Of a stretch of 34,522 nucleotides of DNA, positions 2,640-20,312 are shown in pieces. This stretch comes from Acidobacteriota bacterium (GTDB taxonomy: Bacteria; Acidobacteriota; Vicinamibacteria; Vicinamibacterales; CAVVIG01): positions 1 to 34,522 of the forward strand of contig JANYHS010000211.1 of NCBI GenBank assembly GCA_025358945.1. The letters are read 5' to 3'. Both the position numbers and the translations under genes were made by a program. Position 1 is the stretch's first letter. Each line of letters starts with the position of its first letter. The notes beneath the pieces were generated by a model. The model was not told the origin of the DNA. It did no database searches and saw only the letters and a program-made list of their open reading frames with translations.

Positions 2640-2687
2640 GATGTAAGGTCGACCAGCGGCGCCTTTTATTATAGTTAGAACGAACCT
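2640..2687. promoter_or_regulatory. Divergent promoter region, CHAD-sixA / ppx
   Basis: The 48 bp between the divergent starts contain the AT-rich core CCTTTTATTATAGTTAG in otherwise GC-rich sequence. Read on -, bases 2673-2668 give a perfect TATAAT for the CHAD gene. On +, TATTAT (2667-2672) or TATAGT (2670-2675) could serve ppx. No convincing -35 boxes are seen. ppx has no SD and would have a very short leader (under about 10 nt). Shared use of one AT-rich core by both directions is inferred. Confidence 0.5.
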
Positions 2688-4475
2688 ATGCGTATTGCAG
2701 CCATCGACATCGGCACGAACTCCATCCACATGATCGTGGTCCAGGTTCGCCCCGACCTGTCCTTCGAGGTCATTGACCGCGAGAAGGAGATGGTGCGCCT
2801 CGGCGCGGGCGGTCTGGATGGACGGGCGCTCACGCCCGAAGCGATGCACGCAGCTCTGCAGGTGCTGTCGAAATTCAGGCGTCTGGCCGAATCGCACAAG
2901 GTCGACGAGGTCATCGCGGTCGCGACCAGCGCGACCCGCGAGGCCGAAAACGGCGGCGAATTCCTGCAAACCGTCACGCAGCAGACCGGCATCCGCCCGA
3001 AAGTCATTTCCGGCACCGAGGAAGCCCGGCTCATCCACCTGGCGGCGGTATATGGCGTCAGCGTGCCGGGCGACACCGCGGTGGTGATCGACATCGGCGG
3101 AGGCAGCGTCGAGGTGACGCGTGGTGCGGGCGCCGCGATCGAACTCGGCCGCAGCTTCAAGCTCGGCGTCATCCGACTCACTGAACGCTTCGTGAAGACC
3201 GACCCGCTCGAGTCCCGGGACGAGCGCAAGCTGGTGCGTCACATCGACAGCGAAATCGGCAAGTACCTGCATCAGGTGGCGCGCGGCGGATTCGACCGCG
3301 TCATCGGCACGTCGGGCTCGATCCTCAGCATCGGCGCGGTCGCTTCGGCCGCCGAAGGCGTCGCGCCGGGCGCGTCCCTGCGCAACCGCCGCGTCACGGC
3401 CAAGCAGATCCGTCGCATCCGCAAGGATCTGGTCGCCATCGATCTCGAAAAACGGCTGCGCGTGCCCGGCCTCGAACCGCGACGCGCGGATCTCGCGGTG
3501 GCCGGCGCGATTCTCGTCGACGAGATCCTCAAGCGCCTGGGCGCGACCGAGATCACGCTGTGCGATCTGTCGCTGCGCGAGGGTCTCGTCCTCGACTACA
3601 TTGCGCGCCACCGCAAGGAAATCGCGCAGGCCGATCGGTATCCCGACGTCCGCCGCCGTAGTGTCTTCGAGCTGGCGGAGCGCTGCAACTACTGGCCGGA
3701 ACACTCGCAGCACGTCGCGCGGCTGGCGATCGGTCTGTTCGATCAGACGCGCGCGATTCATGGACTCACTGATCACGAGCGCGAGTGGCTCGAGTACGCC
3801 GCGATTCTCCACGACGTCGGCGTCCACATCAGCTACGAAGGTCACCACAAGCACTCGTACTATCTCGTCACCCACGGCGATCTGCGCGGCTTCGAGCCGG
3901 ACGAGATCGAAGCGATTGCCCTCGTCGCCCGCTATCACCGGCAGGCGACGCCCAAGCGGAAGCACGACGGCTTCCGCAATCTTGGCCGCCGCACACGGCG
4001 GACCGTGCGCACGCTTGCCGCAATCCTGCGGCTGGCGGAAAGCCTCGACCGCAGTCACGCGCAGACGATCAGCGGCTTCGAGCTCCACGACCGCGGCGAC
4101 GACGACCTGCTGCAGTTGCGGACAACGGGCGACGCGGAGCTGGAGCTCTGGTCGGCCTCGCGGCACGCCGCGCCATTCGAACGTCTCACAGGAAAGCCGC
4201 TCCGCATCGAAGTCAGCGGCCACGCATATGCTGAACAACCTGACACAACCACACGAGTACCCGGGCAAACTGTTCGTCGTCGAGGGGATCGACGGCTCGG
4301 GCAAGACGACGCAGTTGGGGCTGCTGGCCAAGTGGCTCAGCGCCGCCGGGCACCGCGTCTTCGTCACCGAATGGAACTCGTCCGCCCTCGTGAAGGCGGC
4401 GACCAAGACAGGCAAGCGAAAAAACTCGCTCACCCCGATGACGTTCAGCCTGCTGCACGCCACGGACTTCGCTGA
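2688..4475 (+). CDS. ppx: Exopolyphosphatase / GppA-family phosphatase with HD domain
   Basis: Ppx/GppA family: hydrolyses terminal phosphates of polyphosphate and/or pppGpp. The ASKHA fold begins with IDIGTNS (residues 6-12). SGTEEARLI (108-116) carries the expected catalytic Glu and IDIGGGSVE (134-142) is the second phosphate-binding loop. An HD-type helical domain follows at about 325-455 (LHDVGVH near 374-380). Homology ends near residue 512 (LRIEVSGH), matching the E. coli enzyme (513 residues). The open frame nevertheless continues for about 83 residues to a stop at 4473-4475, overlapping the next gene by 248 nt. That tail is the out-of-frame sequence of the kinase gene and is Arg/Gln-rich. 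A TGA one frame away at 4232-4234 would give a normal end, so a frameshift or real readthrough is possible. Confidence 0.88.
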   Translation: MRIAAIDIGTNSIHMIVVQVRPDLSFEVIDREKEMVRLGAGGLDGRALTPEAMHAALQVLSKFRRLAESHKVDEVIAVATSATREAENGGEFLQTVTQQTGIRPKVISGTEEARLIHLAAVYGVSVPGDTAVVIDIGGGSVEVTRGAGAAIELGRSFKLGVIRLTERFVKTDPLESRDERKLVRHIDSEIGKYLHQVARGGFDRVIGTSGSILSIGAVASAAEGVAPGASLRNRRVTAKQIRRIRKDLVAIDLEKRLRVPGLEPRRADLAVAGAILVDEILKRLGATEITLCDLSLREGLVLDYIARHRKEIAQADRYPDVRRRSVFELAERCNYWPEHSQHVARLAIGLFDQTRAIHGLTDHEREWLEYAAILHDVGVHISYEGHHKHSYYLVTHGDLRGFEPDEIEAIALVARYHRQATPKRKHDGFRNLGRRTRRTVRTLAAILRLAESLDRSHAQTISGFELHDRGDDDLLQLRTTGDAELELWSASRHAAPFERLTGKPLRIEVSGHAYAEQPDTTTRVPGQTVRRRGDRRLGQDDAVGAAGQVAQRRRAPRLRHRMELVRPREGGDQDRQAKKLAHPDDVQPAARHGLR

Positions 4476-4929
4476 CCGGCTGCTCTACAAGATCATCCCG
4501 CCGCTGAAGGCCGGCATGATCGTGCTGGCGGATCGGTACGCCTACACAGCGTTTGCGCGCGACGCAACGCGCGGCGTCGATCGGCAGTGGGTCCGAGAGC
4601 TGTACAGCTTCGCCGTCCGCCCGGATCTGGCGCTGTATTTCCGCGTGCCGATTGACGTGTCTGTGGACCGGCTGATGGCCCGGCGCGTGAAGCTGAAGTT
4701 CTACGAGGCGGGCCTGGATCTCGGCTGGAGCGCGAACCCGCTCGAGAGCTTCCGCCTGTTCCAGGGCAAGGTGCTCGACGAATACGATCAGCTGGTGCAG
4801 GAGTTCGGGATGGGCGTCGTCGATGCGCGCGGCAGCATCACCGAACAGCAGCGGCTGGTGCGACACGTGATCAGCCAGCACCTGAACATCACACACACAG
4901 TGGAGAAGACCGATGACGAGCTCGTCTGA
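4228..4929 (+). CDS. tmk: Thymidylate-kinase-like P-loop kinase, copy 1
   Basis: A 233-residue TMK-family nucleotide kinase. The intact P-loop is EGIDGSGKTTQ (G20-T27). The DR(Y) motif VLADRYAYTAF is at about 100-109, and PDLALYFRVPIDVSVDRLMARR follows. The canonical enzyme phosphorylates dTMP. This copy carries a C-terminal stretch shared with copy 2 (FYEAGLDLG...ESFRLFQ) that does not resemble the usual TMK lid, so another nucleotide substrate is possible. The start ATG 4228 is chosen because EYPGKL, conserved in copy 2 (QYPGKL), must be included. The ORF track's longer version reads through ppx. It overlaps the ppx tail by 248 nt and copy 2 by 17 nt. Confidence 0.8.
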   Translation: MLNNLTQPHEYPGKLFVVEGIDGSGKTTQLGLLAKWLSAAGHRVFVTEWNSSALVKAATKTGKRKNSLTPMTFSLLHATDFADRLLYKIIPPLKAGMIVLADRYAYTAFARDATRGVDRQWVRELYSFAVRPDLALYFRVPIDVSVDRLMARRVKLKFYEAGLDLGWSANPLESFRLFQGKVLDEYDQLVQEFGMGVVDARGSITEQQRLVRHVISQHLNITHTVEKTDDELV

Positions 4930-5677
4930 CGCGCCGAACGAAGGCGCCAACGGCAACGGACACGCCGGCCGCTACTACGGCCAGGGCATTCCGTACCTGC
5001 CGCTCGATCAGTACCCGGGAAAACTGATCGCCATCGAGGGTACCGACGGCGTGGGACGCAGCACGCAGATCCAGCTGCTGCGCGAGTGGCTCGAGGTCAA
5101 GGGCTACGGCGTCATCGAAACCGGGTGGACGCGGTCGGAGCTGATGCAGCCGACGATCGAACTGGCCAAGTCGAGCAACACGCTCAACAAGCTGACGTTC
5201 GTCCTGCTCTACGCCACCGATTTCGCCGACCGCCTGGAGAAAGAAATCATCCCGGCGCTCAAGGCCGGATTCGTCGTGCTGTCGGACCGCTACATCTTCA
5301 CCGCGCTGGCGCGCGCCGGCGTGCGCGGCGTCGATCGGCAGTGGCTGCGCAACCTGTACGGCTTCGCCATCGCGCCGCACATGGTGTTCTACCTGAACAT
5401 CGACGTGAAGACGCTGATCGGCCGCGTGCTCGAGTCACGCGGGATGGATTACTGGGAATCGGGGATGGATCTGAAGCACGGCGACGACATCTACGACAGC
5501 TTCCGCGCCTACCAGCAGCGTTTGTTGAAGGAGTACGCGTCGATGGGCGACGAATTCCACTTCCGCACGCTCGACGCGCGCCGGTCGATCGACCGGATCC
5601 AGGACGAACTGCGAAAACAGGTCGGCATCTTCCTCGAACCAGTCGAGAAGGCGCCGGAGCCTGCGCCCAAGGGTTGA
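4913..5677 (+). CDS. Thymidylate-kinase-like protein, copy 2, with altered Walker A
   Basis: A 254-residue paralogue of the preceding gene, colinear throughout: QYPGKLIAIEGTDGVGRSTQ, LYATDFADRLEKEIIPALKAG, LSDRYIFTALAR and RGVDRQWLRNLYGFA all have counterparts in copy 1. The P-loop has Arg49 where the invariant Walker A Lys belongs (GTDGVGRST), which in most P-loop kinases severely impairs ATP hydrolysis. The DRY motif (125-127) is intact. A 30-residue Gly/Asn-rich N-terminal extension precedes the fold. It begins 17 nt inside the end of copy 1, so translational coupling is likely. A heteromer of an active and a modified subunit, or a regulatory paralogue, are plausible readings. Confidence 0.75.
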   Translation: MTSSSDAPNEGANGNGHAGRYYGQGIPYLPLDQYPGKLIAIEGTDGVGRSTQIQLLREWLEVKGYGVIETGWTRSELMQPTIELAKSSNTLNKLTFVLLYATDFADRLEKEIIPALKAGFVVLSDRYIFTALARAGVRGVDRQWLRNLYGFAIAPHMVFYLNIDVKTLIGRVLESRGMDYWESGMDLKHGDDIYDSFRAYQQRLLKEYASMGDEFHFRTLDARRSIDRIQDELRKQVGIFLEPVEKAPEPAPKG

Positions 5678-5734
5678 TCCAGCCCAGGGCATCCTCCTTT
5701 CTGCACCGCGGACGCTACATTTAACTCACAGGAA

Positions 5735-6604
5735 ATGTTGTGGCCCGCCTCCTTCGCTATCGTGTGGATGGCCATGATGATGACCGCGCCGCCCCGCGTC
5801 CATGCGTCCCTTCCCCAGACCCCTGGGCAGGAACCGGCCGTCGAGGAGGCCGCCAAAATCGACGTCACCGGACTCGATTTCTTCTACGGCGCCCGGCGCG
5901 TACTCGAGCAGATCACCGTCAAGGTGCGCCCGAACGAAGTGACGGCGCTCATCGGCCCTTCGGGCTGCGGCAAGTCGACGTTCCTGCGCACGCTGAACCG
6001 CATGAACGACATCGTCCCCGGCTCACGCGTCGAAGGCTCGGTCACCATCGACGGCCAGGACATCTACGCGGCGTCGGTGGACGTCGTCGATCTGCGGCGC
6101 CGGGTCGGCATGGTCTTCCAGCGCTCGAATCCCTTTCCGAAGTCGATTTTCGACAACGTCGCGTACGGCCTGCGCATCAACCGCCTCACCAGGTCCCGCG
6201 AAGAACTGGGCGGCCGCGTCGAGTCGAGCCTGAAGTCTGCGGCGCTGTGGGACGAGGTGAAAGATCGGCTGCACACGTCGGCACTGTCACTCTCGGGCGG
6301 CCAGCAGCAGCGCTTGTGCATCGCGCGCGCGCTCGCGGTCGAACCGGAAATTCTGCTGATGGACGAACCGGCGTCGGCGCTCGACCCGATCGCCACCCAG
6401 CGCATCGAGGAACTCATCTACCAGTTGAAGACCCGCTATACCATCGTCATCGTCACGCACAACATGCAGCAGGCGGCGCGCGTGTCCGACGTCACGGCGT
6501 TCTTCTGGCTCGGCAAGCTGGTGGAATGCGGCCGCACGGATAAGATCTTCACCGCGCCGTCGGAAAAACTGACGGAAGACTACGTCACAGGAAGGTTCGG
6601 CTGA
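5735..6604 (+). CDS. pstB: Phosphate ABC transporter ATP-binding protein PstB
   Basis: ATPase subunit of the high-affinity phosphate importer. It has Walker [10 protein letters not shown] (74-82), the PstB hallmark TLNRMND just after it, the Q-loop [19 protein letters not shown], the signature LSGGQQQR (186-193) and Walker B ILLMDEP (206-212). The H-loop is in [14 protein letters not shown]. The track start gives 289 residues, about 30-40 more than usual. Met codons at 5768, 5774, 5777 and 5780 are alternatives and none has a clear SD, so the start is uncertain. It is an orphan: pstS, pstC and pstA are not in the window. The stop overlaps the phoU start (ATGA). Confidence 0.92.
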
Positions 6605-11703: not shown

Positions 11704-11991
11704 TCAGCGGCGTCGGCGGGCGTAGGCGCGGATGCCGATGATCAGCACGGCCACACCGACGCCGACGTACGTGACCGTCGGCGAGGCGTGGCCACCGTTG
11801 GACGTGCGCTCGACGTAGACCGTGACGGCGACCAGCAGCGCGAGCGCGACCGCCGTGGGCAGGAGCCCGGATAGCCACGACGCGCGAGGTAGCGACGCCG
11901 GCTGATATTTCGCCTCGGTCGTCGCCGTGCCGCATTTGTAGCAGATCAGCGCCTTGGCGGCGATTTCAGTTCCGCAGTTTCGACACTGCAT
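11704..11991 (-). CDS. Zinc-ribbon membrane protein
   Basis: A 95-residue protein. An N-terminal zinc ribbon (C3-x2-C6 ... C17-x2-C20, CRNCG and CYKCG) is followed by a linker and two predicted transmembrane helices (about 41-60, LLPTAVALALLVAVTVYV, and 72-89, TVTYVGVGVAVLIIGIRA), ending in RRRR. Such short zinc-ribbon proteins are common and functionally undefined. It starts 11 bp after the RND transporter stop on the same strand, so it may be co-transcribed with the efflux genes; a link to metal handling is only suggested by position. Confidence 0.75.
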   Translation of the reverse strand: MQCRNCGTEIAAKALICYKCGTATTEAKYQPASLPRASWLSGLLPTAVALALLVAVTVYVERTSNGGHASPTVTYVGVGVAVLIIGIRAYARRRR

Positions 11992-12002: not shown

Positions 12003-15000
12003 TCATACCTTGAGGACATCGTCGTCTTTGGCGACGAGCGAGTACAGCACCGGCGCCAGAAAGATCGACAACGCCAGCCGCGACACCAGGCCGCCGACAA
12101 TGACGATGGCGAACGGCTTCTGCGAGTCGCTGCCGATGCCGGTCGAGATCGCTGCCGGCAGCAGGCCGATGCAGGCCACGAGCGCGGTCATCATGATCGG
12201 GCGGAGCCGGAGCAACGATGCCTCGTGCGTGGCCGTCTTGATGTCCTTGCCTTCCAGCCTGAGCTTGTTGATGAACGAGTACAGGATGACGCTGGTCTGC
12301 ACCGCGACACCCATCAGCGCCACGAACCCGAGCCCCGACGACACACTGAAGTTCGTGCCCGTCAGCTTCAGCGCCAGGAGACCGCCCACCGGCTCGGTGA
12401 CCAGGACGCTGAACATGATGATCAGCGGAAACTTCACGTTGCCGTAGAGCCCGAACAGAATCAGCAGGATCAGCACGATCGTCATCGGCAGGATGATCGC
12501 CATCTGCGACCGTGCGGACAGGTACTCCTTGTACTCGCCGCCCCAGTCGTAGGTGTAGCCGGTCGGCAGGGGGACGACCTCGTCCACCTTCTTGCGCGCG
12601 TCGGCAACCGCGCTCGCCAGATCGCGTCCTTCGACGCTGAATTGGATCCCGATAAAGCGCGAGTTGGACTCGCGATAAATGAACGACGCGCCCTTGCTCA
12701 CCTTGATGTCCGCGAACTGGCTGAGCGGCAGATGCTGGTTGTCCGGCGTGGCAATCAGGATGTTCTTGATCGCCTCCATGCTCTGCCGATACGGCTCCTG
12801 CAGGCGGACCACAAGATCGAACGATCGCTCGCCCTGAATCACCTGCGTCGCCGGTGCCCCGCCGACGGCCGTCTCAATCAGGGTGTTGATGTCGGCGACG
12901 TTCAGGCCGTAGCGTGCGATCTTCGCGCGGTCCGGCTCGATCGTCAGGCTGGGCTGCCCGAGCTCGCGCACGAGCGTGATGTTCGAAATGCCGGGCACGG
13001 TGGACATGGCGCGCTGCACCGCCTCGGCTTTCGATTCGAGCGTGTTCAGGTCCGCACCGAAGATCTTCACCGCCAGCGAACTCTTCAGCCCGGTTTCCGC
13101 CTCGTCGACGGCGTCCGCAGCCGGCTGCGTGTAGTTGAAAATGATGCCGGGAAACGCCTTCAGCTTCTGCTGGATCGCGGCGATCAGCTGCGGCTTCGTG
13201 TGGATCGACCCGCCCCATGACGGATCGCCGTACGGCTTCAGTCCCACGAAGTACTCGTCGTTGAAAAACCCGATCGGATCGGTGCCATCGTCAGGCCGTC
13301 CGAGTTCGTTGGCGACCGTGGTCACCTGCGGGAATCCCTGCAGAAGGTCACGCACCTGGGGACCGAGCTTCGAGGCTTCGTCGAAGGAAATGGTGTACGG
13401 CATCGTCGCGCGAACCCAGAGCGCGCCCTCGTCGAGGTGCGGCATGAACTCCGAGCCGATGTACGGTACCAGCAGGAGCGACGCGCCGAACACCGTGAGG
13501 CAGGCCACGACCGTCGCCGCGCGCTGCCGGAGGCAGGCCTCGAGCAACCGTCCGTAGCCGGCGCGAATCCGCTCGTAAACCTGAACCGTCGGCTCCTTCA
13601 CCTGCTTCCGCAACACGTACGAGCACAGTACCGGGAGGAGCGTCAGCGTGCAGATCAGCGACCCGAGGAGCGCGAAGCCCATCGTGTCCGCCATCGGCCG
13701 GAACAAACGGCCCGAAGGCCCGGTCAGCACGTAGATCGGCAGATATCCGGCGATGATGACGGCGATCGCATAGAAGATCGGACGCTCGACATCCTTCGCC
13801 GCCGAACGGATGACGCCGATCAGGTCGTACTTCTGTCCGTGCCGCTCGGCCAACTCGCGGAAGATGTTCTCCACCATCACGACCGAACCGTCCACGATGA
13901 TGCCGAAGTCAATCGCGCCAATCGACAGCAGGTTGGCCGGAATGTGCCGCCAGTCGAGGCAGATGAAGGAAAATAGCAGCGCGAACGGAATCGTGACCGC
14001 CACGATCAGCGCGGTGCGGACGCTGAACAGGAAGATGCCGAGCACCACCAGCACGAGCACCATGCCGCGCAGTAGGTTGCGCTCCACGGTCTTGGTCGTC
14101 TCCGCAATCAGTTCAGTCCGGTCGTAGTACGGGATGATCTTCACGTCCGGCGGCAGCACGCTATTGTTGAGCGTCGCGGTGAGTTCCTGCACCTTCTTCA
14201 GGATCACCTGGGCCTGCTCGCCGACACGCATCAGGATGACGCCCTCGACCGCGTCGTTCTGCTTCATGTAGCCGAACTGTCCGAGCCGCGGCGCCGATCC
14301 GATCGCCACCTTGCCGACGTCGTTCACCGTGACGGGAATGCCCGAGTGCGCGGCGATCACGATGTGGCCGATGTCCTCGAGCGACTTCACCAGGCCAAGA
14401 CCGCGCACGTAGTAGAACTGCCCGCCCTGCGAGAAGAACCCGCCGCCGGCGTTCGCGTTGTTGTTCGCGAGCTGCTGCACAATCTGCGGAACGGTGACCC
14501 CGTACGACATCAGCCGGTGCGGATCGATCTGCACCTGGTACTGCATCGTCTCGCCGCCGAGGCTGGAGTCGGCGGCGACGCCCTGGATGGCGCGGTAGCG
14601 CCGCTCGAGCACCCAGTCCTCGAGAATCTTCAGCTCCTGGGCGGATCGGTCAGGGCTCTGCAGCACGTACCGGTAGATCAGGCCGCTCGGGCTGAAGAGC
14701 GGGGATATGCCGGGGGTCACGCCAGCCGGTACATGTGCGTCCGCGATCCGTTCGAACGCCTGCTCGCGGGCGAAGTACGGATCGGTGTCGTACTGGAAAT
14801 TCATCGTGACCGACGAAAGCCCGTACAGCGAGATCGAACGCAGCGCGTCGAGCTTCGGGATGCCGTTCATCTCGACCTCGAGCGGGATGGTGATCAGGCG
14901 CTCGACTTCTTCCGCGGCATGCCCCGGCCACTGCGACACGATCTGGACCCGTGGCGGCGACAGATCCGGGTAGGCGTCAATCGGCAGGTTCTGGAACGAG

Positions 15001-15086
15001 ATGACGCCCCACACCGCCAGGCACAGCATCGCCACGATGACGATGAATCGCTGCGAGAGCGAGAAGGAAACGATGCGGTTGATCAT
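12003..15086 (-). CDS. Heavy-metal efflux RND transporter (CusA/CzcA family)
   Basis: A 1027-residue inner-membrane proton/metal antiporter of the HME-RND family, of normal length. It has the N-terminal TM1 (RFIVIVAMLCLAVWGVISF), the family sequence NLPIDAYPDLSPPRVQI, the TM4 charge-relay motif GAIDFGIIVDGSVVMVEN with both Asp and Glu as in CzcA-type pumps, and EFMPHLDEGALWVRATMP at the start of the second half. Twelve TM segments can be placed in two clusters. The motif favours divalent cations (Zn/Co/Ni/Cd) over Cu/Ag, but substrate cannot be fixed by eye. TM10 reads MGVAVQTSVILYSFIN. It lies 4 bp after the membrane-fusion gene. Confidence 0.93.
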   Translation of the reverse strand: MINRIVSFSLSQRFIVIVAMLCLAVWGVISFQNLPIDAYPDLSPPRVQIVSQWPGHAAEEVERLITIPLEVEMNGIPKLDALRSISLYGLSSVTMNFQYDTDPYFAREQAFERIADAHVPAGVTPGISPLFSPSGLIYRYVLQSPDRSAQELKILEDWVLERRYRAIQGVAADSSLGGETMQYQVQIDPHRLMSYGVTVPQIVQQLANNNANAGGGFFSQGGQFYYVRGLGLVKSLEDIGHIVIAAHSGIPVTVNDVGKVAIGSAPRLGQFGYMKQNDAVEGVILMRVGEQAQVILKKVQELTATLNNSVLPPDVKIIPYYDRTELIAETTKTVERNLLRGMVLVLVVLGIFLFSVRTALIVAVTIPFALLFSFICLDWRHIPANLLSIGAIDFGIIVDGSVVMVENIFRELAERHGQKYDLIGVIRSAAKDVERPIFYAIAVIIAGYLPIYVLTGPSGRLFRPMADTMGFALLGSLICTLTLLPVLCSYVLRKQVKEPTVQVYERIRAGYGRLLEACLRQRAATVVACLTVFGASLLLVPYIGSEFMPHLDEGALWVRATMPYTISFDEASKLGPQVRDLLQGFPQVTTVANELGRPDDGTDPIGFFNDEYFVGLKPYGDPSWGGSIHTKPQLIAAIQQKLKAFPGIIFNYTQPAADAVDEAETGLKSSLAVKIFGADLNTLESKAEAVQRAMSTVPGISNITLVRELGQPSLTIEPDRAKIARYGLNVADINTLIETAVGGAPATQVIQGERSFDLVVRLQEPYRQSMEAIKNILIATPDNQHLPLSQFADIKVSKGASFIYRESNSRFIGIQFSVEGRDLASAVADARKKVDEVVPLPTGYTYDWGGEYKEYLSARSQMAIILPMTIVLILLILFGLYGNVKFPLIIMFSVLVTEPVGGLLALKLTGTNFSVSSGLGFVALMGVAVQTSVILYSFINKLRLEGKDIKTATHEASLLRLRPIMMTALVACIGLLPAAISTGIGSDSQKPFAIVIVGGLVSRLALSIFLAPVLYSLVAKDDDVLKV

Positions 15087-15090
15087 GGCG

Positions 15091-16278
15091 TTAAGGCCGG
15101 TACGTATTCGCGAACTGTAAGAACACGCTGCCCTGCGAGACCACCGGATCGCCGGCCTTGAGGCCGTCCATCACCTGCGTGTCGTCGCCCTGCTGGCCGC
15201 CCAGCTTCACGAGACGCTGCGCAAACTTGCCGGCATCCGTCTGCATGTAGACGAACGGGAAGTTCTGCTCGTCGTAAAGCACGGCGGTGGTCGGGATCAC
15301 GAGCACGTCGCGCGTCGTCTTGTCGTGGATCACGACGTCGAGGAACAGATCCTTCTTGAGCACGCCGCCGGTGTTCTGCGTGACGATGCGAACCGAGGTC
15401 GTGCGCGTCGCCGGATCCAGCAGGTCACCGATATACGCCACCGTGCCGTGGAACGTCTCGGGGAACGACGCGTTCCGCTCGTCGACCTTGTCGCCGACAT
15501 GCACCGACGCCAGGTCCTTGTCGTACACGTGTCCCTGGACCCAGACCGTGGACGTGTTGCTGATCACGAACGCCGCGGTCGTCCCGGCCTGGATGAACTG
15601 ACCGGGCAGCACCAGCTTTTGCACCACGACGCCGGCCAGCTGTGCGCGCATCACCAGCTCAGGCCGGATCGCCACGTTTTGTTGCTCGGCCCCGGTGATC
15701 TCGCTTTGCGTGACGCCGTAGATCTTCAGCGCCTGCAACGCCGTCTGCACGTCCGTGCCGGAGTCGTTGTAGTCGGCCTGCGCGGATTCAAAGTCGCGCG
15801 GCGACAGCGCCTTGTGATCGAGCAGATCCTGGCTGCGGGTCAGCACGCGCTGCGCGAGACTGAACCGGTTCTTCGCCTTGCGATACACCGCGATTGCGTT
15901 GGTGATGTCCGCGCTGGCCACGTATAACAGCGGGTCGCCGGCCTTGACGCGCGCACCGGTGTCGACAACGATCCGCGCGATTGGGCCACTGACCTGCGTG
16001 ATGGCCTGCGTCGTGTGGTCATTGTCCCAATCGACCGTGCCGGTCGTGCGCACTTCCGCGGACCATGTGGCGGCGCGAACCGCCGCGATCTTCAGGTGCG
16101 GCAATTGATCCGGCGGCACGGCGAAGTAGGTGGCACCGGCCTGGCCAGCCGCGGCCGTCGGCGCGGGCGTGGAGCCCGGCGCGGCAGCCGCCTCCTTGGC
16201 TACCGCAGCGGGCGGTGCGCCGTTCTGGCACGCTGACCCCGCCAGCGCGACGATGACCGCGATACTCGCGCTTCTCAT
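15091..16278 (-). CDS. Efflux periplasmic adaptor (CusB/CzcB-type membrane fusion protein)
   Basis: A 395-residue membrane-fusion protein. The N-terminus is a lipoprotein signal with lipobox LAGSAC (Cys17), followed by an Ala/Pro-rich linker of about 30 residues. The lipoyl/barrel-sandwich halves are around GPIARIVVDTGARVKAGDPLLYVAS and MRAQLAGVVVQKLVLPGQFIQAG, with a helical hairpin between them. Beta-barrel and membrane-proximal domains follow (YIGDLLDPATRTTSVRI, VLVIPTTAVLYD). It joins the RND pump to the TolC-like channel. Its ATG overlaps the TolC-like stop (ATGA), showing an operon. Confidence 0.92.
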   Translation of the reverse strand: MRSASIAVIVALAGSACQNGAPPAAVAKEAAAAPGSTPAPTAAAGQAGATYFAVPPDQLPHLKIAAVRAATWSAEVRTTGTVDWDNDHTTQAITQVSGPIARIVVDTGARVKAGDPLLYVASADITNAIAVYRKAKNRFSLAQRVLTRSQDLLDHKALSPRDFESAQADYNDSGTDVQTALQALKIYGVTQSEITGAEQQNVAIRPELVMRAQLAGVVVQKLVLPGQFIQAGTTAAFVISNTSTVWVQGHVYDKDLASVHVGDKVDERNASFPETFHGTVAYIGDLLDPATRTTSVRIVTQNTGGVLKKDLFLDVVIHDKTTRDVLVIPTTAVLYDEQNFPFVYMQTDAGKFAQRLVKLGGQQGDDTQVMDGLKAGDPVVSQGSVFLQFANTYRP

Positions 16279-17573
16279 TGCATGACCTGCCTTCCAACCG
16301 CGAAATTGATCTGCTGGACGCTCGTCATGTACGCCGCCAGCGCCTGCCGATACGCCAACTGCGTCGTCCGGTATGTGCGCTCCGCGTCCAGCAAGTCGAG
16401 CAACGTGCCGTTGCCCTGCTGGTACACGTAGGTCGTGATGTCGAGCGACTGCTTCGCCTGGTTCAGATAGCCCGACTCGAACAGGCCCAGCACCTTCTGA
16501 CTGGTCTGGAACGTGGCATACGCGCTGACGACGTCTGTGATGACCCCGGTGCGCGCGCCAGACTCCGCCTCAGCTGCCTGTAGCAGTCCGACCTTCGCGT
16601 GCGCGATGTTGCCCTGGTTGCGGTCGTGAATCGGGAGCTCCACCGAAATGGAAAACCCAAGCGCGTTCAGCGGCCCGGCGCGGTCATATTCCACACCCCC
16701 GGTAATGTCGCGCGCGCGATTGCTGTAGGCGAGCGCCTGCGTGTCTTCGGCAAGTTTGATGCCGCTGCGCGCCGCCCGCAGGTCCGGCCTCGCGTCGAGC
16801 GCGTCACGTTTCAGGTCCTCGAGCGCCACGGTGTATTTGACATACGCGAGATCGCCCTCGACGTCGAACGTCTCGGCCACACCCTCGAAGCCCACGTTCT
16901 GACGCAACGCCGCTTTCGCCAGCACGAGCGCGACTCCGGCCGAGGACACGTCTTGCTCGAACTGCAGCTTCTGCAGCGAAATCTTGAAGAAGTCGGACTC
17001 CGCGAGGTCGCCGGCGCGCAGACGCTCGCGGTTCACGTCCACCACGTTTGAAAAGTTCTTCAGGTTTTCCTGCGCCAGGTCGAGCGATGATTTAGCGAAT
17101 AGGACATTGATGAATGACTGCGACGTCTGAAAGATCAGCTGACGCCCTGCATCGGCGGCCGTCTTCGCCGTCACGTCCGTGGTGTCGCGGGCGACGAGTG
17201 TCCGTTTCTCGCGCTTGCCGCCGCGCTCGAAGAGATAACTGACCGACTCGACGAAGTTCTGGTTGTTGGTCAGGTTGTCCCAACTGAACAGATCGGGCGG
17301 CGCGAAGATTGGAAAGTTCTCGTTGGTCGACGTGAACACCGGATTCGGTTTCAACGCCGCAGTGATTTCGTCGGCTTTCGAGAGGTCCACGTTCAGGCGC
17401 TGCGCACGTAGCAGGTGGTTGTGCTCGAGCGCCAGCCGCACCGCATCACCCATCGAGATGCGGGTGGACGGCAGCGGCTGGACGGCGACCGCCTGCGCCG
17501 CGGCCGCAACTGGCACAGCCGACGCAACCAGCATGGCACCGACGCAGCGTTTCATGGATGACCATGCGCGCAT
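16275..17573 (-). CDS. TolC-family outer-membrane efflux protein
   Basis: A 432-residue TolC/CusC-like channel. The start is set at ATG 17573 (MRAWSSMKRCVGAML) because GAAGGAG lies 9 nt upstream; the track's 18-residue extension has no such support. A signal peptide ends near AAAAQA. Two outer-membrane-efflux repeats of long helices follow: SMGDAVRLALEHNHLLRAQRLNVDLSKAD in the first, ALEDLKRDALDARPDLRAARSGIKLAED in the second, ending LLDAERTYRTTQLAYRQALAAYMTSVQQINFAVG. It is the first gene of the tripartite efflux operon, followed by the adaptor and pump. Confidence 0.9.
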   Translation of the reverse strand: MRAWSSMKRCVGAMLVASAVPVAAAAQAVAVQPLPSTRISMGDAVRLALEHNHLLRAQRLNVDLSKADEITAALKPNPVFTSTNENFPIFAPPDLFSWDNLTNNQNFVESVSYLFERGGKREKRTLVARDTTDVTAKTAADAGRQLIFQTSQSFINVLFAKSSLDLAQENLKNFSNVVDVNRERLRAGDLAESDFFKISLQKLQFEQDVSSAGVALVLAKAALRQNVGFEGVAETFDVEGDLAYVKYTVALEDLKRDALDARPDLRAARSGIKLAEDTQALAYSNRARDITGGVEYDRAGPLNALGFSISVELPIHDRNQGNIAHAKVGLLQAAEAESGARTGVITDVVSAYATFQTSQKVLGLFESGYLNQAKQSLDITTYVYQQGNGTLLDLLDAERTYRTTQLAYRQALAAYMTSVQQINFAVGRQVMQ

Positions 17574-17701
17574 CGAGTTCGACTCCTTCAAGTGACCTGA
17601 CGAACGGTGGCGCGATGCCATCCGCACACGAAGTGCAACTCAGGCCACGCGACAACCGCGAAAAATGGATGGCTCCGTCCGCAGACGAAGCAATGAGGGG
17701 A

Positions 17702-18007
17702 TCAGGTGCGGGCGGGGGGCGAACGGCCGGTGGTGCGAACCGCGAGGAGCGTGCCCGTATCGAGGAGGACGGACGAGGTGGCGGATCCCGCATCGGCGAG
17801 CTGCGCAGCGCCCGGGGCGAGCGCAATCTGCGTGTCGGAGCCGAGCTGCGTGGACGTGCAGGACGTGCAGTGCTGCGGCGTCTTCAGCTCGCAGGAGAGA
17901 TCGTGGTGCTCAAAGGGTGACGCGACCAGGAAAACGGCATAGATCGCCATCCCGACAAGCGCCAGGCGCCACGAGAGACGACCGCTCCCCCTTCGAGTCA
18001 TCCGCAT
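17702..18007 (-). CDS. Small His/Cys-rich membrane protein upstream of the efflux operon
   Basis: A 101-residue protein of no family I recognise with confidence (some resemblance to DUF2946-like proteins). A basic N-terminus and one TM/signal segment (about 12-31, LSWRLALVGMAIYAVFLVAS) are followed at once by the potential metal-binding cluster FEHHDLSCELKTPQHCTSC. The rest is low-complexity Ala/Gly/Ser/Thr. It lies 128 bp before the TolC-like gene on the same strand, so a periplasmic metal-sensing or metal-relay role is attractive but unproven. The start is either ATG 18007 or ATG 18001; a perfect TATAAT ends 8 nt before the latter, favouring a leaderless message from 18001. Confidence 0.65.
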   Translation of the reverse strand: MRMTRRGSGRLSWRLALVGMAIYAVFLVASPFEHHDLSCELKTPQHCTSCTSTQLGSDTQIALAPGAAQLADAGSATSSVLLDTGTLLAVRTTGRSPPART

Positions 18008-18015
18008 CGATTATA
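18008..18015 (-). promoter_or_regulatory. Perfect -10 box for the small His/Cys protein
   Basis: On - the sequence reads TATAATCGATGCGGATG: TATAAT (18015-18010), then 8 nt, then the ATG at 18001. No SD and no good -35 box. It would start a transcript at the second Met codon and could drive the downstream efflux genes. Confidence 0.5.
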
Positions 18016-18033: not shown

Positions 18034-18666
18034 TCATCGGCCGACCACGACTTTGACCCGCGCGGCGATGCCGCCCAGGTCAGACTCCCCCGCCTGCTGG
18101 GACACGCCCGCCGTGCCGAGAATGCCCGACACATGGCTGTACTGCACGTCCCCCGCGATGCCGACCCATCGGTGCACACGAAACTCGGCGCCGCCGTTGA
18201 CGACAAACCCAGCGTGACGGGTGCTGACGTCGTCTCCCGGTTCGGCAAAGGACGAGGTCTCGGTGTAGCCGTACGACCCGAACCCGGCCGCAACGTAGGG
18301 ACGCACGGCCGGAAATTTCTTGAACCGGAAACGATACCCGCCCGTCACTTCAACCGGCGTGACCGTTGCGGTGAGCGGAATCCCGAGCTGAAACACCTTG
18401 CCCAGATTCAGGTACGCCCGTTGACCGGTCTGTCGAAATCGCGACGCGCTGATCTCCACGAAGAACGTGTCATGCACAACCACCTGGACGCCGCCGCCGA
18501 AGAACGGAAAGAACGTCTTGCCGAACGTGGCGTTGAACGTCTGCGTGGCGGCGAACGATTGCCCGGTCGCCATCGCGAACGGCCGAATCGAAAGCGGCGG
18601 CGGATCCTGCGCTAATACGGGCGCCGCGAGCACGAGACCGATGACCAGCAGCACGGTGGTTTTCAC
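18034..18666 (-). CDS. Outer-membrane beta-barrel protein
   Basis: A 210-residue protein with a clear signal peptide ([20 protein letters not shown], cleavage after AQ). The mature part has alternating hydrophobic/polar strands typical of a small porin-like or OmpA-like barrel (VVVHDTFFVEISASRF, VEVTGGYRFRFK, VRPYVAAGFGSYGY, HAGFVVNGGAEFRVHRWVGIAGDVQYSHV). The GGAEFRVHRWVGIAGDVQYSH stretch is a common signature of barrel proteins of this class. Its start overlaps the stop of the S8 protease by 4 nt (ATGA), so the pair is co-translated. Function unknown. Confidence 0.8.
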   Translation of the reverse strand: MKTTVLLVIGLVLAAPVLAQDPPPLSIRPFAMATGQSFAATQTFNATFGKTFFPFFGGGVQVVVHDTFFVEISASRFRQTGQRAYLNLGKVFQLGIPLTATVTPVEVTGGYRFRFKKFPAVRPYVAAGFGSYGYTETSSFAEPGDDVSTRHAGFVVNGGAEFRVHRWVGIAGDVQYSHVSGILGTAGVSQQAGESDLGGIAARVKVVVGR

Positions 18667-20312
18667 TTCGCCAACCCCAATCCGCGCAGCGCCGCCCGCG
18701 CATCCACGAGCCCGAACCCGAATGTGTTGTCGCGGCCCGGCGTACCGAGATCGACGGCGGTCTTTTCCAGGATGTCTTCAATCGCCGCAGGGTCGGTGAT
18801 CCCCTGCTGCATCAGCATCGCGGCGATGCCGGACACATGCGGCGCCGCCATCGACGTGCCGATGTACCCGATCGTCGCCAGCACGTCGAAGCGCGGCGCG
18901 CGGTACTGCGCCGGCGGCAGCAGGAACGTGTCGGTAAAGTTGTAGTCGAACGTCTGCTGCCAGACGAACCCGTCCCTGCCGAACCCGCGCTCCGACCCAC
19001 CAGGAGCAGACAGCTCAACGTAGGGTCCGGCGCTCGAGTAGTACGCGTGCGCCTTCGCGCGATCGACCGCGGCCACCGATACGACGCCGGAAATGCGCGA
19101 CGCGATTTCGGCCAGCACGCTGGTCGGATTCGTGCCGTAAGGCGGCACGGTGTCCTCGAACTCGTTTCCGGCAGAGACGACGATGAAGCAGCCTTTGCCG
19201 ACGGCGTAGCGCATGGCCGCTTCGATCACCGGCGCGCAGTCCACCTGATTCGGGTTGGTCCCACAGTTGGGCGGACCGGAGCTGCCGAGGCTCATGTTCA
19301 GGATCTTCGCGCCGTTGTCCGCCGCATACCGGATGCCGCGCGCCACGTCATCGTCGCTGCCGCCTTCGCTGCTGGCGCCGCCGAACAACACGTCCCAGGT
19401 GCTCGCCAGCACTTTCACCGGCATCAGCTTCACGTTGAACGCCACGCCCGCGGTGCCGATCGCGTCGTTTGTCAGCTGACCGATCGTGCCGCTGACGTGG
19501 GTCCCGTGTCCCTCGAAGTCGAGCGGAGGATTGACGCCCGCGGAAATCACATCGTAGGGCGCGACGATGCGCCCGGCGTTGCCGGCGCCGACCAGTTGCG
19601 GCGCACCCGAGTACGGAATCGTCACCTTGCCGAGCGCGGGATAGCGAATTCCGGCCCCGTCCCTGAATGACGGAATCGTCGCCGTGATCGTCGCGTTCTG
19701 GTAGGCCATCCCGGTGTCGATCACCGCGACCGTAATCGTGGAACCGGCCAGCGGCTGAATGTCCCACGCCTTTTCCAGATTGACAAGTGGGAGATTCCAC
19801 TGCAGCGTCGCGTACTCGGGATCGTTGGGGATCAACGTGGCGTGCACGCGGTACGCGGCCTGCGCGTATTGCACCTCAGGACGGCCCTGCAGCGCCTGCG
19901 CGACCATTTCTGGATCCTCGCTCGCATCGAGACGGACGATGTCGAAGTCCGCATACGACGCGCGGGTACCGAACTCGCCGGTGCTGCTTGCCGCGCGCAG
20001 CGCCGCTTTCCGATCGCCCATCGCCGCCTCGTCGCGGAACTTCACGATCAGGCGATCCGATCGATAACGCGCACCGGACGCGCTCACGCGATCGGTGGAT
20101 AACGCGGCCAGCAGGGCCCGCTTCCTCACCATCTGCTCCGACGCCGGCGTGTGGCTTTCGTCGCGGATGACGCCTTCGTCGATCGCCGTCAGGCCTACGT
20201 TCTGGAGGATGGCGAACGAAGACTCCACCACCGTCTGCCCGCGAAGGCTCAACACCAGCCCGCCGGCCACGGCTATGACCGCGCAAAGGGCGCGAACGCG
20301 AAATCCACTCAT
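18663..20312 (-). CDS. Secreted subtilisin-like (S8) serine protease
   Basis: A 549-residue S8 peptidase with an intact triad: D199 (VAVIDTGM), H272 ([11 protein letters not shown]) and S487 ([11 protein letters not shown]), plus oxyanion Asn383 (SAGNEF). An N-terminal signal/anchor (about 5-24) precedes an inhibitor-like prodomain with [10 protein letters not shown] (about 87-96), the typical start of the propeptide. The catalytic domain ends with the family C-terminus [16 protein letters not shown]. Cys350 and Cys359 could form a disulfide. It should act outside the cytoplasm. It is coupled to the downstream beta-barrel gene and divergent from leuC by 54 bp. Confidence 0.93.

Follow-up and report, generated by a model that had tools for sequence, protein, structure and literature searches.

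A small minus-strand open reading frame (ORF) ahead of a metal-transport operon in an Acidobacteriota bacterium quite probably encodes a nascent-chain metal sensor of the kind represented by CruR and CutF, that is, an upstream ORF (uORF) that would set the output of its own operon, probably in response to zinc; the stalling, the identity of the metal, the step controlled and the sign of the response are all points that we infer. The original prediction had been that the product could be a metal chaperone or sensor for the neighbouring efflux pump. The link to a metal is supported, and of the two roles we retain the sensing one, as a putative arrest peptide acting as a nascent chain rather than as a chaperone or a stable sensor protein.

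The leader ORF and its operon

The window, by which we mean the whole stretch of 34,522 nucleotides that was analysed, carries the following features of interest, listed in the direction of transcription:

18010..18015, (-), -10 box TATAAT, 8 nt before the likely start codon
18007, (-), alternative upstream ATG of the leader ORF
17702..18001, (-), leader ORF (uORF), 99 aa, likely start at codon 3 (18001)
17921..17986, (-), the one TM segment, residues 6-27 (helix in the AlphaFold model with block pLDDT up to 94)
17891..17908, (-), HHDLSC, predicted metal-ligand motif, residues 32-37 (alignments)
17858..17872, (-), HCTSC (HCxxC), predicted metal-ligand motif, residues 44-48 (alignments)
17714..17725, (-), RSPP, residues 93-96, a motif of the arrest type (44 residues after CxxC, 3 ahead of the stop)
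17574..17701, (-), intergenic leader, 128 nt, between leader ORF and TolC
17672..17691, (-), terminator-like hairpin and T-run, possible attenuator (1 found vs 0.3 expected by chance)
16275..17573, (-), TolC-type outer membrane efflux protein (PF02321; start MRAWSS with SD)
15091..16278, (-), CzcB-type periplasmic adaptor, MFP (PF16576; TIGR01730)
12003..15086, (-), CzcA/ZneA-type RND pump with DFGIIVDGSVVMVEN motif (TIGR00914, 902 bits)
11704..11991, (-), membrane protein with zinc ribbon, constant to the right of the exchanged cassette

The ORF at 17702-18007 is real and lies on the minus strand. Its first ATG is ATT in the same-genus homologue, and because of this and of the spacing from the -10 box we place the start at codon 3, which would probably give a protein of 99 aa. 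The TATAAT with which the original prediction had credited the gene is present, and TAT[A/C]AT or TATACT adjoins the start codon at ~34 of 40 loci as against 5 of 518 control ORF starts, a contrast that is approximate since the control ORFs include spurious ones. The position of this box would imply a leaderless or near-leaderless mRNA at most loci. The leader ORF is the first gene of its operon and has its own -10 box, conserved at most loci.

The genes behind it had also been read correctly as a TolC/MFP/RND series on the same strand, and no classical metal regulator was seen nearby in the ORF lists, again as predicted. With a TolC protein, a CzcB-type adaptor and a CzcA-family pump bearing the divalent-metal motif, these partner genes form an HME-RND operon. 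The pump is ZneA/CzcA-like and not CusA-like: its best solved relative is ZneA (778 bits, vs 534 bits for CusA), and since the ZneA match lies far above that to CusA, the substrate is probably a divalent metal such as zinc. A CusA-type copper pump was rejected on these two scores and because, where CusA has its methionines, the aligned residues of the window pump are different ones.

Distribution and relatives

That the ORF is more than a chance one follows from the profile match of the window locus (E 6.5e-38) together with profile-search matches in 38 of the 193 genomes of its class of Acidobacteriota. Homologues occur in 23 of the 60 relatives searched, and among 396 genomes sampled evenly across the phylum there were 12, one of them outside the class; the named homologue records are Acidobacteriota MAGs. 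Plasmid relatives were looked for and none were found. Judged by sequence, the protein is a new family: no Pfam, NCBIfam or PDB relative reached significance. Membership of DUF2946, the family of CruR, was rejected on the same grounds, as the window locus was not matched by the Pfam DUF2946 (PF11162) profile, hhalign against three DUF2946 proteins gave no significant match, and the weak similarity of a few members stayed below threshold (best E 0.055, 2 of 25 members).

Anatomy of the leader protein

As had been noted from the window, a dense His/Cys cluster follows the TM segment: the N-terminal helix leads into HHDLSC and then HCTSC. The expectation that these residues would be conserved in relatives has been borne out, in that HCxxC is near-invariant, with both Cys invariant in alignments A1, A2 and A4, while HHDLSC is invariant in alignment A2 and HHDxxC is kept at most loci of the wider set. 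HCxxC and a C-terminal R[S/A/G]PP are the best-conserved parts of the protein, the latter standing beside the stop at all loci and reading RSPP in most members (the window protein ends RSPP-ART-stop). The distance from CxxC to R[S/A/G]PP is 43-44 residues at every locus, and the linker between the two diverges, with homologue identity to the window protein as low as 25%. Of 2961 six-frame ORFs of 60-250 residues, R[S/A/G]PP is terminal in just 57, and in 39 of them a CxxC stands 43-45 residues away. The positive N-terminus suggests that the TM segment is oriented N-in/C-out. Its helix is the sole confident part of the AlphaFold model, the rest being predicted to be unstructured (pLDDT 58), a confidence pattern more in keeping with a sensor that acts transiently as a nascent chain than with a folded chaperone.

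The same cluster might instead belong to a stable, membrane-anchored periplasmic accessory protein that binds zinc and either hands metal to the transporter or restrains it, a reading that we consider improbable but the most serious of the alternatives. The conservation of the His/Cys residues after the TM segment and the linkage to two kinds of metal transporter (see below) would suit it, as would the precedent of CzcI from Cupriavidus metallidurans, a small His/Cys protein ahead of czcCBA that has been suggested to be a metal-sensing regulator and that the window protein, likewise ahead of a CzcCBA-type RND operon, resembles by description. Such a protein is nevertheless at odds with the lack of any predicted fold outside the TM segment, and it leaves unexplained the terminal R[S/A/G]PP and its fixed distance of 43-44 residues from CxxC; CzcI itself is without a C-terminal proline motif.

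Resemblance to known arrest peptides

The leader resembles CruR in every anatomical feature that could be tested. CruR (Bp2923, DUF2946) of Bordetella pertussis is a uORF that senses copper. In its nascent chain, arranged as CXXC-45 residues-RAPP, RAPP is three residues from the end, and the spacing is kept within 1-2 residues and matters for regulation (PMC9426467). CruR has an N-in/C-out segment and a C>G bubble that holds its rut site, occupies the first position, precedes a long intergenic region, and is reported to be unstructured beyond the TM segment (PMC9426467). In the family described here the spacing is 43-44 residues as against 45, the motif again lies about 3 residues from the end, and a small first ORF with an export/TM segment (residues 6-27) and a C-rich 3′ end, where a C>G bubble was measured, is followed by an intergenic region of 46-235 nt and a metal-transport operon; two divergent members even head TonB-receptor genes, as CruR does. 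The differences are RSPP in most members in place of RAPP, the extra HHDxxC ligands, zinc-type ABC or RND cassettes in place of a copper TonB transporter, the occurrence in Acidobacteriota, and the lack of a detectable DUF2946 match.

Arrest by CruR has been demonstrated in vitro; test peptides showed RSPP to be partly permissive for arrest, and the motif is strongly depleted from proteomes (PMC12992588). RSPP also occurs in uORFs that fall into clusters with RAPP arrest peptides. Many sequences resembling RAPP fail to stall, as did the proline motif of CutF on its own. SecM, ApdA and ApdP are exported uORF products that likewise carry a C-terminal motif of the R-A-P/G-P type, but they monitor protein export, not metals.

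CutF of Rhodobacter capsulatus has CxxxC, covers the SD of the gene behind it with a stem-loop, and turns its target on (PMC9973294). The rules given there for CutF-like proteins describe the window protein well, with its 99 aa (<150 aa), PP within the last 15 residues, residues 6-27 as a presumed export signal and a same-strand gene <1000 nt downstream (TolC, 128 nt), although it has CxxC in place of CxxxC and no conserved stem-loop was found. RND operons headed by CutF-like proteins are already known, OEP/RND genes being frequent neighbours of such proteins, and the text cited here makes no mention of ZnuA/ZnuB neighbours or zinc (PMC9973294). Because copper turns the CruR operon off (PMC9426467) and CutF turns its target on, both signs of response exist among such leaders.

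Exchangeable cassettes behind the leader ORF

Among 40 informative loci, the leader ORF is followed by a porin-like OMP, ZnuA (PF01297) and ZnuB (PF00950) at 33 (32 in the class and one in G217, from another class), by TolC-MFP-RND genes at five, the window included (at one of the five the contig ends within TolC), and by TonB-receptor genes at the other two. The predicted linkage to efflux genes thus exists but is not general, and a role specific to metal efflux was rejected on these counts. An assembly chimera is an unlikely source of the RND version, since five genomes carry it. At many loci of both cassette types, the window too, the zinc-ribbon gene closes the cassette. The window and its closest relative, the same-genus genome G001, share ~79% DNA identity up to 17711, at the end of the ORF, and are similar again from 11994, at the zinc-ribbon gene, with unrelated cassettes in between; on this alignment the difference is a cassette exchange with the 3′ end of the leader ORF and the zinc-ribbon gene as its edges. 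As the downstream genes and the intergenic leader change around the ORF, we regard the small ORF as the constant element and the transporter as exchangeable. Compared with the papers cited here, what is new is the association with ZnuAB, the exchange of cassettes and the existence of an acidobacterial family.

The link between leader ORF and cassette is not absolute. Two RND genomes (G003 and G026) keep OMP-ZnuA-ZnuB elsewhere, where it adjoins a TonB receptor and no leader ORF was recognised, and G008 has this cassette without a leader ORF; no close copy of OMP-ZnuA-ZnuB was found in the window's genome. The displaced cassettes lie near a TonB-dependent-receptor-like gene at L137:2902-6321 and on the reverse strand of L139 at 2640-5865.

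The intergenic leader

The sequence around the uORF stop of the window is C-rich (C-G +18 in 80 nt, 99.8th percentile), and the ORF 3′ end is C-rich and G-poor across loci (median 97.5th percentile), a skew that is partly due to the CGN-TCN-CCN-CCN codons of RSPP, which dictate C. Intergenic leaders have a median of 162 nt in RND loci vs 75.5 nt in ZnuAB loci (p 0.007), and longer RND leaders would fit a rewiring of the response, the RND sample being five loci. The hairpin and T-run of the window recur in some relatives only, and a universal intrinsic attenuator was rejected for that reason. No conserved stem-loop, SD sequestration or shared structure was found in the intergenic leaders (mean folding z -0.44), the SD of the next gene has a median unpaired probability of 0.31 across loci, and an Rfam search of the leader returned no riboswitch match.

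These data bear on the idea that the leader is merely translated and acts through translational coupling or RNA structure alone, with no metal sensing by the nascent chain. The first position in the operon, the short intergenic regions with SD sequences and the terminator-like hairpin of the window are what one would expect of it, but it does not account for amino-acid conservation of the His/Cys and RxPP residues over ~40 loci and sits poorly with the lack of conserved RNA structure or an Rfam match, so that we think it very unlikely. A membrane-tethered thiol redox protein with HCxxC as its active site, for which a CxxC on the presumably periplasmic side could be cited, is scarcely credible given the lack of a thioredoxin-type domain, Pfam match or solved relative and operons that encode metal transport, not redox partners.

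Proposed mechanism

Under the nascent-chain sensor that we favour, the emerging protein would bind a divalent metal, most likely zinc, through HHDxxC and HCxxC, and the ribosome would pause once it reaches RSPP, which adjoins the stop at the C-terminus. With the ribosome in that position, HCxxC would stand ~47 residues away from the peptidyl-transferase centre, either close to the exit of the tunnel or within the translocon, the TM segment having already left the ribosome. The pause would then be altered by metal binding, and transcription or translation of the transporter genes would depend on the occupancy, by ribosomes, of the intergenic leader and the C-rich end of the ORF. Candidate control steps are Rho or intrinsic attenuation, or access to the SD.

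Metal-sensing arrest peptides are known for copper (CruR, CutF) and just suspected for nickel/cobalt; if the proposal is true, the mechanism extends to zinc-type transporters and to the Acidobacteriota. Import and efflux cassettes that share one sensor would require inverted logic in one of the two. It is conceivable, and we put it forward tentatively as something that may well prove wrong, that this is the first zinc-responsive arrest-peptide sensor, with the same locus wired to an uptake-type or an efflux cassette and the logic set by the intergenic leader that each cassette brings. The same sensor before two cassettes would be a natural experiment on wiring one arrest peptide to opposite outputs. 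Caution also seems warranted in annotating small His/Cys proteins of this type as chaperones.

Other features of the loci

The OMP-ZnuA-ZnuB cassette is without an ATPase gene, with no intergenic room for one and none seen alongside (L035:5362-7203 and other ZnuAB-type loci). Its porin-like OMP (L035:4089-5387, L033 and others) begins with a stretch resembling a coiled coil, has a barrel-like part and ends in a conserved GAHGAHPF; no Pfam family matched it above cut-off. The window also has, at 18034-20312 (-) upstream of the leader ORF, a small beta-barrel OMP (PF13505) and an S8 protease of the subtilisin-like type, both recurrent upstream of loci of this family; in G023 (L030, oriented 2684-3625) the gene of an ArsA/Get3-like ATPase separates the leader ORF from the barrel OMP. 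Three close relatives only (L028, L029 and L032) have an inverted-repeat-like TTTGTGAAAAAGTGT...ACACAAAGTTGTTC ~35-90 nt upstream of the leader start, a possible operator. Finally, at L092:3620-6602 and in L093 (oriented 3168-6025), divergent ORFs with the closely CruR-like arrangement CxxC-44-RAPP head TonB-receptor-like genes.
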